Shown: positions 6,870 to 17,203 of the stretch, in pieces
Layout: each line of letters begins with the position of its first letter
Position numbering within the stretch: position 1 is the first letter of the stretch
IMG/VR virus record: IMGVR_UViG_3300048692_000011
Coordinates: 1 to 34,483 of that record
From: a virus
Strand: one strand, 5' to 3'
Length of the DNA stretch: 34,483 bases
Notes under the pieces: generated by a model
Database searches by the model: none
Told to the model about the DNA's origin: nothing
What the model saw: only the letters and a program-made list of their open reading frames with translations
Translations under genes and position numbers: made by a program

Positions 6870-7262
6870 TCAGGAGAGGAGATAACGCTCGATGATTTCC
6901 TTACCATCAATCCAACCATAGCAGAATTGGCCATCAAATCCAACGGTTTTCATCCGCTCAATCCAGATTATTTGGTTTGCCCATGACTCCGCCTTTTGTG
7001 CTGATGGCGGGTATTTCATGGCACGCTTCACCTCTAACCAAAGACCTGCATATTTACCGCTTTTGCTAGGGTAGGGAATGAACAAGTCACTCACCCCTGG
7101 GCGTAATCCTTGCAGCTTCAAGTTCCACGTTTGCGCCTCTGTTCGTTTCCCCTCATTGTTATTCTTACAAAAGAAATCCTTAAGTTGTGGATGAAGACTC
7201 AACCACTTTACCAACCACCTTTGCTCTTGGTTCTCGGTTGGTATTGATACACGCTTGGTCAT
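6870..7262 (-). CDS. VRR-NUC domain nuclease
   Basis: 130 residues. VRR-NUC proteins are PD-(D/E)XK-type nucleases, several acting on Holliday junctions or branched DNA. Visible motif residues: E10/E13 in TENQEQRW, G56-V-S-D59 in RPGVSDLFIPYP, and E77-V-K79 in LWLEVKR, followed by Q89 and Q97. This is essentially the whole family domain. ATG at 7262 has GAGG 6 bases upstream, better than the ATG at 7274. Last gene of the replication block, so a role in resolving replication or recombination intermediates before packaging is likely. Confidence 0.88.
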   Translation of the reverse strand: MTKRVSIPTENQEQRWLVKWLSLHPQLKDFFCKNNNEGKRTEAQTWNLKLQGLRPGVSDLFIPYPSKSGKYAGLWLEVKRAMKYPPSAQKAESWANQIIWIERMKTVGFDGQFCYGWIDGKEIIERYLLS

Positions 7263-7359
7263 CCTTAACCTCATCGTTACCGTAAAGTATCTTCATTAGC
7301 GCCATGACTTCCTGTCTGTCGCGTAGATTAATTGTTTTTGGCTTGTTCTTTTTTTTCAT
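7180..7359 (-). CDS. Possible 59-residue overlapping protein
   Basis: Open frame starting MKKKNKPKTINLRDRQEVMA and continuing LMKILYGNDEVKDDQ. It begins inside the preceding 52-residue gene and overlaps the nuclease gene by 83 bases, which is a lot. The first 35 residues look protein-like; the C-terminal part, which overlaps the nuclease, looks less so. Either a real short gene or a chance frame. Confidence 0.35.
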   Translation of the reverse strand: MKKKNKPKTINLRDRQEVMALMKILYGNDEVKDDQACINTNREPRAKVVGKVVESSSTT

Positions 7360-11337: not shown

Positions 11338-11384
11338 AGCTCTTAAGTGAGCACTTTATGTTAACTATGTTAGGAGAAGTAAAA

Positions 11385-12230
11385 ATGGCGTTAAAAGCAA
11401 AAAAACCTTTGGTGTCTGAGTGCAGAATGAAAGCATTGTTTTATGGTTCTGCTGGTGTCGGCAAAACGTATGCTGCGATTCAGTTCCCGAAACCCTATAT
11501 CATTGACACAGAGGGTTCCACCAACAAGCCACAATATGTACGCTTGATTGAGAAGTCAGACGGGGCAGTTCTTATGACCGTAGACTTTGATGAAATGATT
11601 AATGAGGTTCGTGAGTTGCTCACCACAAAGCATGACTATAAAACGTTAATTATTGACTCGTTAACCCTGTCGTATAATGACCTGCTCGAAAAGGCAGAGC
11701 GCAAAGTGGGTACTGATTTTGGTCGCCATTACGGTGAGGCTAACAAGCGCATGAAGCAGCTATTAAACTTGCTGTTCCGATTGGACATGAACGTTATTAT
11801 TACTTCTCATAGCAAGAATGAGTACGGACAAAATTTGGCAGTTTTAGGGCAAACGTTCGACTGTTACAAGAAATTAGATTACCTTTTCGATTTAGTGTTT
11901 GAGATTCAAAAGCGTGGAACCCATCGCGTGGGCTTAGTTAAGAAGTCACGCTTTGAGACATTCCAAGATACAGACACTTTTCCGTTCTCTTATGAAGAGA
12001 TTGCAGACCGTTACGGACGTGCGGTAATTGAACGTGAAGCAGTAGCGCAAGAACTGGCTACACCTGACCAAATTAAAGAGATTAAGCGACTTGTAGAGTT
12101 ACTCAAGGTAAGCGAAGAGACTACGCAAAAATGGCTGGACAAGGCCAATTCTGACACGTGGTCGGACATGCAAAAAGATTCGATTCAAAAGTGTATCGAT
12201 TTCATGAAGTCTAAAATACAAGGAGAATAA
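11385..12230 (+). CDS. Sak4-like RecA-family recombination ATPase
   Basis: 281 residues. Sak4 proteins are small RecA/Rad51-like phage ATPases that promote single-strand annealing or homologous recombination, usually with an SSB. Walker A GSAGVGKT is at 21-28, Walker B LIIDS at about 88-92, and a sensor-like IITSHSK at 138-144. The C-terminal part (ATPDQIKEIKRLVELLKVSE onward) looks like a separate helical module. ATG at 11385 has AGGAG 7-9 bases upstream, better than the ATG at 11358. The SSB-like gene begins 3 bases after its stop, the usual Sak4-SSB pairing. Confidence 0.85.
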   Translation: MALKAKKPLVSECRMKALFYGSAGVGKTYAAIQFPKPYIIDTEGSTNKPQYVRLIEKSDGAVLMTVDFDEMINEVRELLTTKHDYKTLIIDSLTLSYNDLLEKAERKVGTDFGRHYGEANKRMKQLLNLLFRLDMNVIITSHSKNEYGQNLAVLGQTFDCYKKLDYLFDLVFEIQKRGTHRVGLVKKSRFETFQDTDTFPFSYEEIADRYGRAVIEREAVAQELATPDQIKEIKRLVELLKVSEETTQKWLDKANSDTWSDMQKDSIQKCIDFMKSKIQGE

Positions 12231-12233
12231 GTA

Positions 12234-12731
12234 ATGTTTCAATATGACGTAATGAGCGAGCAGGAAGCAATGGCGGAACGTTTCCAGTTAATGAAAGAAG
12301 GAGTCTATGAAGGGGTTATTACCTCTTCACAAGACACCAAGTCATCTACTGGCAATCCCATGATGGACATGACCGTAACCGTTTATGACGAGAACGGCAA
12401 GCCACATGATGTCCGTGACTTCTTGGTATTTACCAAAACAATGATGTGGAAGGTCATACACTTTTGTGACTCAGCAGGTTTATTAAAAGAGTACGAAGAG
12501 GGCAAGCTATGCTCACAAGTAGCAATTGATAAGCGTGTCATGGTTAAAGTAGCTGTTGAAGAGGGTAGCGAAATACCCCAAGATAAGTTAAAAGGTAAAC
12601 CGCTTGGTAGTAAGTACCCAGACAAAAATAAAATTGGCGAGTACATCAAACGGTCTGAACAAGGCGCTGCACCTTCAGCTGGTGACAATCCGCCACCGTT
12701 TACCGATGATGATATTCCGCCCTTTCTGTGA
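12234..12731 (+). CDS. SSB-like single-stranded DNA-binding protein (DUF669 type)
   Basis: 165 residues. An OB-fold-like core (GVYEGVITSSQDTKSSTGNP, MTVTVYDENGKPHDVRDFLV) is followed by a low-complexity linker (EQGAAPSAGDNPPPF) and the acidic tip DDDIPPFL, which mirrors the DDDIPF tail of bacterial SSBs used to recruit partners. Start ATG at 12234 has AAGGAG 8 bases upstream. Placed directly after the Sak4-like gene, so it probably covers the single strands on which that enzyme acts. Confidence 0.82.
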   Translation: MFQYDVMSEQEAMAERFQLMKEGVYEGVITSSQDTKSSTGNPMMDMTVTVYDENGKPHDVRDFLVFTKTMMWKVIHFCDSAGLLKEYEEGKLCSQVAIDKRVMVKVAVEEGSEIPQDKLKGKPLGSKYPDKNKIGEYIKRSEQGAAPSAGDNPPPFTDDDIPPFL

Positions 12732-12738
12732 GGATTAG

Positions 12739-12858
12739 ATGGGATATTTAAAAGGTTTTGGAGTAAGCGCACTTATAATGGTTTTTCAACATCACTTCCC
12801 ACTGTCATGGTGGGAATGTGCGCTTTTAAGTTTCGGGATTACTGCAATAATTATCTAG
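12739..12858 (+). CDS. 39-residue membrane peptide
   Basis: Starts MGYLKGFGVSALIMVFQHHF and ends ALLSFGITAIII. Two hydrophobic stretches (about 5-17 and 27-39) separated by QHHFPLSWWE suggest a small hairpin membrane protein. GAGG lies 5 bases upstream of ATG 12739, 7 bases after the SSB stop. The coding region overlaps a strong nested hairpin (12765-12825), so the DNA may serve as RNA structure as well as, or instead of, coding. Confidence 0.5.
   Translation: MGYLKGFGVSALIMVFQHHFPLSWWECALLSFGITAIII
12765..12825 (+). promoter_or_regulatory. Nested hairpin after the Sak4-SSB pair
   Basis: Outer arms AAGCGCAC (12765-12772) and GTGCGCTT (12818-12825) are perfectly complementary. Inside them, TTCCCAC (12796-12802) and GTGGGAA (12810-12816) form a second 7-bp stem with a 7-base loop. 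The sequence after the outer stem is TTAAG, a poor T run, so a weak terminator, attenuator or mRNA stabiliser fits better than a strong terminator. Confidence 0.5.
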
Positions 12859-12870
12859 GGAGTCAAACTA

Positions 12871-13245
12871 ATGAATTTTTGCGAAGCAATGGATTTGCTT
12901 AAGAATGGTGCGAAAGTTACCAGGAGCGTATGGAAAGGAAGCCTTTATTTCATGATGCAGGGCGACGTGGTTATGTCATATCAGCCTAGATACTTAGACT
13001 ATACCTACGATGAATCAATTATGGTTTCAGATGGTTGGTTAATCGAAGGTGATACCCAAGAGTATACTTTTTGCAAAATTATACCTTTCCTGAATGACGG
13101 CAAAAAAGCGCACATGGCCGACTGGAAAGATTCATTTATCTTTTTAGATAAGCCAACAGGAAAGCTGGTTTTGCATATGATGGACAGCTTCCCCTTCGTT
13201 CCTGAGTTTGAATCGTTTACGGCAACCGATTGGATTGAAGAATGA
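12871..13245 (+). CDS. Second Tad2/DUF2829-like protein
   Basis: 124 residues. The start MNFCEAMDLLKNGAKVTRSVW followed by GSLYFMMQ, and the end SFTATDWIEE, match the two ends of the DUF2829/Tad2 pattern (mnf-eA--lLk-Gkkv-R--W ... DWe). The middle is longer than in typical Tad2, with an additional segment ADWKDSFIFLDKPTGKLVLH that itself has Tad2-like spacing. Tad2 proteins bind cyclic ADP-ribose signals of Thoeris defence. ATG at 12871 follows AGGGAG. Early-arm position suits an anti-defence role better than the late copy at 1233-1478. Fold assignment moderately sure; ligand unknown. Confidence 0.6.
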   Translation: MNFCEAMDLLKNGAKVTRSVWKGSLYFMMQGDVVMSYQPRYLDYTYDESIMVSDGWLIEGDTQEYTFCKIIPFLNDGKKAHMADWKDSFIFLDKPTGKLVLHMMDSFPFVPEFESFTATDWIEE

Positions 13246-13418
13246 TACCATTTGAAGATAAGACGTTTTGCGCCTCACCAAAATGTAAAAATGAGTGCGG
13301 GCGCAAGATGACCAAAAGAGAAGAAGAGCAGTTGGAGAAAATGAACGAAACCCATTTGGTGGGTGTTATGCAAGGATATTTTTGTGGCGAACCAGAAGGG
13401 GACGAACTAAATGATTGA
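13242..13418 (+). CDS. 58-residue Cys-rich zinc-binding-like protein
   Basis: Starts MIPFEDKTFCASPKCKNECG and ends FCGEPEGDELND. Cysteines at 10, 15, 19 and 48 could bind one zinc. ATG overlaps the Tad2-like gene's stop as ATGA and the stop overlaps the next gene by 8 bases. The middle is charged helix (TKREEEQLEKMNETH). I recognise the F-C-xxxx-C-xxx-C start as common in tiny phage proteins without assigned function. Confidence 0.68.
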   Translation: MIPFEDKTFCASPKCKNECGRKMTKREEEQLEKMNETHLVGVMQGYFCGEPEGDELND

Positions 13419-13713: not shown

Positions 13714-13786
13714 AAGCCCTCAAAGCCTCTTAACCACTAACGCTGCTCAGCTCTATTAGGTATGCTCAAGATGAGGGCTTCTTTTT
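13714..13786. terminator. Shared convergent terminator candidate
   Basis: AAGCCCTCA (13714-13722) pairs with TGAGGGCTT (13772-13780), followed on the plus strand by CTTTTT (13781-13786). The loop is long (49 bases), which is atypical. It lies between the stop of the plus-strand operon and the stop of the minus-strand secreted-protein gene, so it could end both transcripts. Confidence 0.55.
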
Positions 13787-14121
13787 CACTTTAACCCAAT
13801 AAATACGGGATTAAAACTGTTTGACGTAAATATGCAATACCCATTGCTATGAGGCACGCAGTTGCTTATTTTATAACCTGTAGTGTTTAACCTTATTCCT
13901 GCGTTCGGGAAATTGGTTGTGTTCGTTGTTCGGGTCTTAATGTATAAATCCAGACCAGTAGCCGTATAGTTTTGGCACGACATTTGAGCAACACCATTCA
14001 AACATAGAGTAATCGGCAAAGATAATCCCTTGTTTTCGGACTGCACATCGAATAGCAAGCCACCGCAATACGCGGCACCAGAACCCAAAGCCAAAATTGC
14101 TGCCAGTAGTTTTATTTTTAT
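13786..14121 (-). CDS. Exported Cys-containing protein, moron candidate, apparent ATA start
   Basis: From an ATA codon at 14121 the frame reads IKIKLLAAILALGSGAAYCG, a convincing Sec signal peptide (basic start, hydrophobic core, small residues before cleavage). The mature part has CQNYTATGLDLYIKTRTTN, FPNAGIRLNTTGY and NGYCIFTSNS, with cysteine pairs likely to form disulfides; this style recalls exported Legionellales proteins, from memory. AAGGA lies 10 bases before the ATA. The first standard start downstream (TTG 14094) would remove the signal peptide. An in-frame TAG at 14122-14124 bars extension. Its orientation, its own hairpin and its export signal fit a moron acting on the host envelope or outside it. 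The start may be a mutated ATG, in which case the gene is weakened. Confidence 0.6.
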   Translation of the reverse strand: MKIKLLAAILALGSGAAYCGGLLFDVQSENKGLSLPITLCLNGVAQMSCQNYTATGLDLYIKTRTTNTTNFPNAGIRLNTTGYKISNCVPHSNGYCIFTSNSFNPVFIGLK

Positions 14122-16439: not shown

Positions 16440-16628
16440 ATGACAGTGCTTACAAAAGAAACAGAACATTATATAGAACATGAGGTAAAACTAAGGCTGA
16501 ACGAACACAAGTTTGATGCCTTTGAAAAACGCATGGACAAAATGGATCACAAACTCAACTTCATAATTGGCATCATGATTGGTTCAATATTCTTGCCCGT
16601 AGCCATGAAATATCTTCATTTACTATGA
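16440..16628 (+). CDS. Coiled-coil membrane-anchor protein (XhlA-like layout)
   Basis: 62 residues. A charged amphipathic helix (HYIEHEVKLRLNEHKFDAFE, then KRMDKMDHKL) is followed by one C-terminal membrane helix (NFIIGIMIGSIFLPVAM). This is the XhlA-like design of small phage or prophage membrane proteins. ATG 16440 follows AAGGGGAATAAA and the strong promoter at 16390-16417. It overlaps the recombinase ATG by 4 bases, so the two are coupled. Confidence 0.6.
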   Translation: MTVLTKETEHYIEHEVKLRLNEHKFDAFEKRMDKMDHKLNFIIGIMIGSIFLPVAMKYLHLL

Positions 16629-17203
16629 CCCATCAAATTGTAGGTTACATTAGAGTTTCATCAGCAGGTCAAAATATTGCACGTCAATTAGTTGATGTGA
16701 AATTAGACAAGGAATTTGTCGATACCATAACAGGAAGTACCATGGACAGAAAAAATCTTATTGCATGTATGGAATATGTGCGCGAAGGAGACACGCTTGT
16801 TGTTGATAGCATTGATAGGTTGGCTAGAAACTTATTAGACCTTCAAGAAATAATAAACTTTTTAATCAATAAAGGGGTGTCGGTTAAATTTATTAAAGAA
16901 AATCTTACATTTAATTCTTCTAAAGACCCAATGGCTAATCTTACTTTGCAAATTATGGGCGCTTTTGCCGAATTTGAACGAAATATGATTCGTTCACGGC
17001 AGCGTGAGGGAATTGATGCTGCAAAGAAGGCGGGTAAACATTTGGGGCGCCCTCATAAAATTGACAATAAATTTAGAAAAGTTGTCAAAGAGAAGCTAGA
17101 AAGTTGTCAATCCATACGAAGTATTGCAAAAGATATGAACGTTTCCAGAGCTACCATATATAAAGTTAAGGAGCAAATTAATGACAATGGAATGCAAGCA
17201 TGA
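16625..17203 (+). CDS. Small serine recombinase (resolvase/invertase family)
   Basis: 192 residues, the usual size of Tn3/Hin-type enzymes. GYIRVSSAGQNIARQ carries the catalytic serine (S12, with R10), then DSIDRLARNL with R65 and R68, QIMGAFAEFERNMIRSRQRE with the E helix, and GRPHKI leading to a C-terminal helix-turn-helix (SIRSIAKDMNVSRATIYKVK, about 163-182). All key residues are present. These enzymes resolve dimers, invert segments or cut and rejoin at short palindromic crossover sites. No paired inverted segment was found nearby; the palindrome array at 16280-16326 is a candidate site. Coupled to the upstream membrane protein by ATGA. Confidence 0.92.
   Translation: MTHQIVGYIRVSSAGQNIARQLVDVKLDKEFVDTITGSTMDRKNLIACMEYVREGDTLVVDSIDRLARNLLDLQEIINFLINKGVSVKFIKENLTFNSSKDPMANLTLQIMGAFAEFERNMIRSRQREGIDAAKKAGKHLGRPHKIDNKFRKVVKEKLESCQSIRSIAKDMNVSRATIYKVKEQINDNGMQA

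Follow-up and report, generated by a model that had tools for sequence, protein, structure and literature searches.

The stretch of viral DNA analyzed here (the window; 34,483 nucleotides, positions 1 to 34,483 of IMG/VR record IMGVR_UViG_3300048692_000011) carries on its plus strand, at 12871..13245, a tandem Tad2-like gene, P0001, which is recognized by its open reading frame, its match to Pfam family PF11195, and the purifying selection described below. The frame starts with ATG and has 124 codons for 124 amino acids, exactly as a first-pass annotation had given it, and the sequence AGGGAG at 12857..12862 (plus strand) is read as its likely ribosome-binding site. The gene order on this strand is Sak4-like, SSB, 39-aa ORF, P0001, 58-aa gene. 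The Sak4-like single-stranded DNA-annealing protein (11358..12230; phrog_124 at 8e-29, and PF13479) is the anchor of the locus and is followed by a single-strand DNA-binding protein (SSB, 12234..12731; phrog_378 at 4e-8). The gap between SSB and P0001 holds a small membrane-like ORF of 39 residues (12739..12858) with the hydrophobic translation MGYLKGFGVSALIMVFQHHFPLSWWECALLSFGITAIII, which is kept in the close relatives L001 and L004-L007, is interrupted by a stop in L002, and was not found in more distant relatives. A structured RNA upstream of P0001 was also considered, but the conserved stem-loop is better explained by this coding ORF. The next gene, encoding 58 residues (13242..13418; from the ORF list and the gene order of relatives), overlaps P0001 by 4 bases, from which translational coupling of the two genes is likely. 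The Sak4-SSB-tandem gene order is unchanged in the relatives compared, and downstream of P0001 there is a variable bank of small genes, most of them without known function. Three other genes were observed in the window. A minus-strand ORF of about 102-111 residues (13786-14094) lies inside the plus-strand early arm and shares 93-97% identity with its counterparts in L001 and L006 and 46% with that in L011; a serine-recombinase-like (resolvase/invertase) gene identified by eye (16625-17203, plus strand) sits at the distal end of the variable early region and is kept in the relatives compared; and a VRR-NUC domain nuclease (6870-7274, minus strand; PF08774 at 24.1 bits, barely above its cut-off) adjoins replication genes.

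When the whole of P0001 was compared with Pfam, a single family was matched, PF11195 (Tad2-like, the former DUF2829), at 45.7 bits over two stretches, the gathering cut-off being 25 bits; by its profile score the protein belongs to this domain family, as had been proposed. A scan of the whole window with PF11195 matched three places, 12871-12966 (27.4 bits, profile positions 1-32), 13066-13236 (18.2 bits, profile positions 2-71 of 73), and 1284-1469 on the minus strand (27.3 bits), which corresponds to a second gene, P0002. Taken alone, module 1 of P0001 (residues 1-62; 12871..13056, plus strand) scores 29.3 bits and module 2 (residues 63-124; 13057..13242, plus strand) scores 21.1 bits, which is under the cut-off, and AlphaFold predicts the same order of secondary-structure elements in each of these compact Tad2-like domains. 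A self-alignment, which had been suggested as a check, gave an in-register repeat when these two halves were compared (FCEAMDLLKNGAKVTRSVWKGSLYF versus FCKIIPFLNDGKKAHMADWKDSFIF, closing at W56 and W121), with a BLOSUM62 local score of 54 that was equaled in none of 20,000 residue shuffles, the best of which scored 49. The repeat is also present in all 16 other members tested, where no more than 3 of 3,000 shuffles did equally well, and a comparison of the module 1 profile with the module 2 profile gave an E value of 1.4e-7, so that chance resemblance of the halves is ruled out. The unit boundaries suggested at first, residues 1-60 and 80-124, have to be moved: the second unit begins at about residue 64, where YTFCKII pairs with MNFCEAM, and W85 of ADWKDSFIFL is the counterpart of W21. 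Judged by this pairing, the internal segment noticed at first, ADWKDSFIFLDK (residues 83-94; 13117..13152, plus strand), serves module 2 as its start motif.

The subthreshold score of module 2, together with a separate model of it that finds no Tad2 structure, could be taken to mean that P0001 is one Tad2 domain enlarged by inserted sequence and that its internal resemblance reflects chance or low complexity. This is extremely improbable in view of the significance of the repeat, the repeated secondary structure, and the invariant W56 and D120-W121 at matching module ends. Further, module 2 of a distant ortholog, L167, which retains GAKVSRKDW, passes the cut-off alone, with 29.5 bits across profile positions 1-72 of 73, and this rules out a domain expanded from inside. 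P0001 is almost certainly a two-module Tad2-like protein, and the sequences establish both units as complete, compact modules; the early suggestion of two fused units is retained, but not its variants in which the units are half-modules or a single unit was expanded internally. A tree of 81 domains places modules 1 and 2 apart and does not separate duplication from fusion of two genes. A cysteine after the first phenylalanine, which is common to both modules (C4 and C68) but not seen in the canonical domains sampled, gives a hint of origin by duplication.

AlphaFold was run on 14 sequences, and the model of whole P0001 (pLDDT 78, pTM 0.67) contains the order helix-strand-strand-strand-helix-strand twice, with elements H3-11, E16-18, E25-30, E33-39, H48-51, and E56-58 in module 1 and H67-75, E80-82, E89-93, E98-102, H113-116, and E121-123 in module 2. 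In a Foldseek search of the PDB with the whole model, 15 of the first 17 matches were Tad2 (8v3e, 8wje, 8smf, 8smg, 8sme, 9eib), and the best BFVD match was a Tad2-like protein. The monomer prediction had been put forward at the outset as another check; its secondary-structure order repeats, and its Tad2 matches are weak (E about 0.3, rmsd over 9 Å). Module 2 modeled alone gave a poorer model (pLDDT 74), with no Tad2 among its PDB matches. When a profile built from 17 orthologs was searched against the PDB, the top six matches were all Tad2 proteins or type II CRISPR inhibitors of the AcrIIA7 kind, with SptTad2 at 7.7e-5 and the AcrIIA7 chains weak at E 0.1-1. It should be noted that the three-dimensional arrangement of the two modules is a predicted one, unlike the division into modules, which comes from the sequence.

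Direct searches of IMG/VR contigs turned up orthologs that match P0001 in length and architecture; GTDB genomes yielded none, and INPHARED phages gave only partial, non-significant matches (E 0.005 or weaker). The phage group has genomes of roughly 30-40 kb, and its TerL is nearest to those of Pelagibacter, Cronobacter, and Burkholderia phages, at under 40% identity. Every near-complete close relative has the tandem gene, in a set of relatives that was found using the tandem gene itself. Another survey was anchored on the neighboring Sak4-like gene rather than on the tandem gene and took in loci that extend 3 kb or more downstream; the tandem gene was present downstream in 36 of 56 such loci and absent from 20. 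The gene is accessory yet often kept, and among close orthologs (dN 0.07-0.16, dS 0.7-1.4, dN/dS about 0.07-0.12) it is under strong purifying selection. Across 38 sequences, the invariant residues are L10, R18, W56, F67, D120, and W121; W21 is present in 97% and W85 in 89%.

The invariant residues are distributed asymmetrically between the modules. Arg18, which with W21 forms the R18-x-x-W21 start motif of module 1 (12922..12933, plus strand), is invariant in module 1 only, and its counterpart in module 2 is mostly Met, Leu, or Arg (M82 in P0001, Arg in L167 and L272). Asp120-Trp121, the closing motif of module 2 (13228..13233, plus strand), is invariant in module 2 only; the corresponding position in module 1 usually has Gly-Trp, of which the Trp is the invariant closing W56 (13036..13038, plus strand). 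The end pattern of module 2, P-x(6)-A-x-D-W, resembles W-x-P-S-x-x-D-x-L-A-x-D-W, a segment of Tad2 located ahead of its last strand, of which module 2 retains the P, A, and DW, plus the D in one clade, and module 1 the final W alone. Within this pattern, the W-x-P-S-x-x-D loop is reduced to F-x-P in module 2 (one clade has F-x-P-T-x-x-D) and has disappeared from module 1. SPO1 Tad2, ModTad2, and SptTad2 have WNGK in the loop that follows their first conserved Trp, a sequence absent from both modules of P0001, which have WKGS (module 1) and WKDS (module 2). Motif scoring against a consensus of 119 canonical Tad2 proteins recognized the start motif in module 1; because that sample was chosen by WNGK, scoring of the end motif is uninformative and the frequency of WNGK across the wider family is not inferable from it.

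In the Tad2 tetramer, the ligand pockets lie between protomers, one of which contributes the β1-β2 loop, the β3-β4 loop, and the β4 strand and the other the β1-β2 loop, the β4-α3 loop, and the α3 helix (PMC12043709); from the strand order, the loop at the WNGK position presumably corresponds to the β1-β2 loop of that description. SPO1 Tad2 binds gcADPR and ModTad2 binds His-ADPR (PMC13299392), so the Tad2 family does change its ligand. P0001 could accordingly be pictured as a classical anti-Thoeris Tad2 that sequesters 1''-2' or 1''-3' gcADPR, or His-ADPR, in the manner of these two proteins, and it shares their Pfam family and has Tad2 proteins as its nearest solved structures. Such a role is nevertheless quite improbable, since the loop residues common to SPO1 Tad2, ModTad2, and SptTad2 are not kept and P0001 differs from them in length and domain number. 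A classical gcADPR pocket in P0001 is not supported by these loop sequences, and membership among the Tad2 anti-Thoeris sponges is not shown, because P0001 has neither the WNGK loop nor the single-domain build; a Tad2-like Pfam match by itself does not establish an anti-Thoeris factor. With WNGK missing from both window proteins, and most of W-x-P-S-x-x-D also gone from P0001, no ligand can be inferred for P0001 or P0002.

The Tad2 fold is used by phages to soak up bacterial alarm molecules, and known Tad2 sponges are one-domain proteins whose pockets are made by tetramer formation. By analogy with the Tad2 homotetramer of dimers, with its pockets between protomers, one P0001 chain would most likely be a built-in dimer (pseudo-dimer) of two asymmetrically diverged Tad2-like domains, and two such chains would form a Tad2-like tetramer that sequesters a nucleotide-derived host immune signal early in infection, without enzymatic turnover. 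We infer the oligomer, the pocket, and the ligand alike from this analogy. On balance we favor, with modest confidence, a single-chain pseudo-dimer sponge acting as two chains per tetramer, and a sponge for some nucleotide signal is similarly somewhat probable, but it is rather unlikely that the signal is gcADPR or another Thoeris signal. The sponge model draws on the PF11195 score, the separate detection of the modules, the repeat and its repeated secondary structure, the presence of Tad2 among the first Foldseek, BFVD, and profile-search PDB matches, the placement of the gene behind Sak4 and SSB in the variable early region, the occurrence in 36 of the 56 loci, and purifying selection. Against it are the changed WNGK and W-x-P-S-x-x-D loops, the weak module 2 model without a Tad2 match, the Foldseek E value of about 0.3, and the lack of known anti-defense neighbors of P0001 among the genes scanned; PADLOC and NCBIfam searches also gave no matches. 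Presence in every near-complete close relative would, in addition, fit a housekeeping role in the phage, although those relatives were gathered with the gene itself.

The fact that P0001 directly follows Sak4 and SSB in the relatives examined, together with the loss of WNGK and most of W-x-P-S-x-x-D from both modules, is also compatible with reuse of the Tad2-like fold for binding a host or phage protein or nucleic acid within the Sak4/SSB module, with no nucleotide signal involved. An inhibitor role would be one example, as AcrIIA7, which carries DUF2829, was reported to act against type II CRISPR-Cas (PMC6739104), and AcrIIA7 chains appear in the PDB profile search. Nonetheless, about one-third of Sak4-bearing relatives are without the tandem gene, so the Sak4/SSB recombination module can do without it, and nothing directly indicates that P0001 binds nucleic acid or protein; reuse of this kind seems less likely, although it deserves consideration. 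If P0001 is instead a nucleotide-signal sponge, a composite pocket built from both modules is possible from the distribution of invariant residues. A more specific version is unlikely: in it the diverged modules would each supply part of the pocket, the Arg18 side from module 1 and the Asp120-Trp121 side from module 2, to give one composite site or two unlike sites for signals beyond the reach of classical Tad2, with P0002 either capturing a different signal or entering the same oligomer. The split invariant residues and missing loop letters may point to signals not yet known.

The second, divergent Tad2-like protein that the first-pass annotation had noted in the same phage is P0002 (1233..1478, minus strand; PF11195 28.1 bits), and P0001 is, as it had stated, the longer of the two (124 versus 81 residues). 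Both are compact PF11195 proteins without the WNGK loop, but P0002 has a single domain, lies next to the terminase on the minus strand, and occupies a separate branch of the domain tree. It is located away from the early arm, and most relatives with the tandem gene have kept it too. Among 26 near-complete Sak4-bearing contigs, sorted by frame length and place, 9 have both genes, 2 the tandem gene only, 3 the single gene only, and 12 neither; this co-occurrence has a Fisher p of 0.004 without tree correction, and a test on the Sak4 tree had just 2-4 supported independent contrasts and did not confirm the link.

Among characterized proteins, P0001 can be compared most directly with Tad2 (SPO1 gp34.65, ModTad2, and SptTad2; PF11195; PDB 8smf/8smg, 9eib, and 8wjd), with which it shares the Pfam domain, the order of the helix-strand core, the R-x-x-W start, the D-W end motif, and carriage by phages. 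Tad2 proteins have 88-101 residues, one domain, and the WNGK loop, whereas P0001 has 124 residues in two domains of about 60 residues and lacks WNGK and most of W-x-P-S-x-x-D. AcrIIA7 has the Pfam domain in common with P0001, but the sequence match is weak (E 0.1-1). Although P0001 had been put forward as the best candidate in the window for an undescribed arrangement, tandem Tad2 architecture is already present elsewhere, by sequence, in phrog_1048, and is hence not unique to the P0001 family. In about 17 of the 119 canonical Tad2 ORFs sampled from IMG/VR, the canonical domain is preceded by an additional, degenerate Tad2-like unit, and in L076, a triple, by two. The proteins with front units are those of phrog_1048, which occurs in Blautia, Faecalimonas, and other gut Firmicutes; degenerate N-terminal unit(s) with a canonical C-terminal Tad2 are seen in L076, L060, L069, and others and in genome loci L169-L183. 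No description of tandem Tad2 proteins was found in the literature searched, in which the role of the gut Firmicutes proteins also seems to be undescribed. These proteins from gut Firmicutes and phages (phrog_1048 and phrog_872) resemble P0001 in having two, sometimes three, PF11195 units per chain; PHROG matches of P0001 are weak, the best being 7.7e-8. They differ in having frames of 155-258 residues, in which a compact degenerate N-terminal unit precedes a canonical Tad2 that carries WNGK and, in most cases, WLASQ, whereas neither unit of P0001 is canonical, both being without WNGK and WLASQ, and it is the N-terminal unit that matches better. What sets the P0001 family apart is a compact protein with no canonical unit, carried by a group of roughly 30-40 kb phages. 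Such a widespread family of two joined, differentiated copies gives a natural setting for testing how the specificity of sponges evolves.
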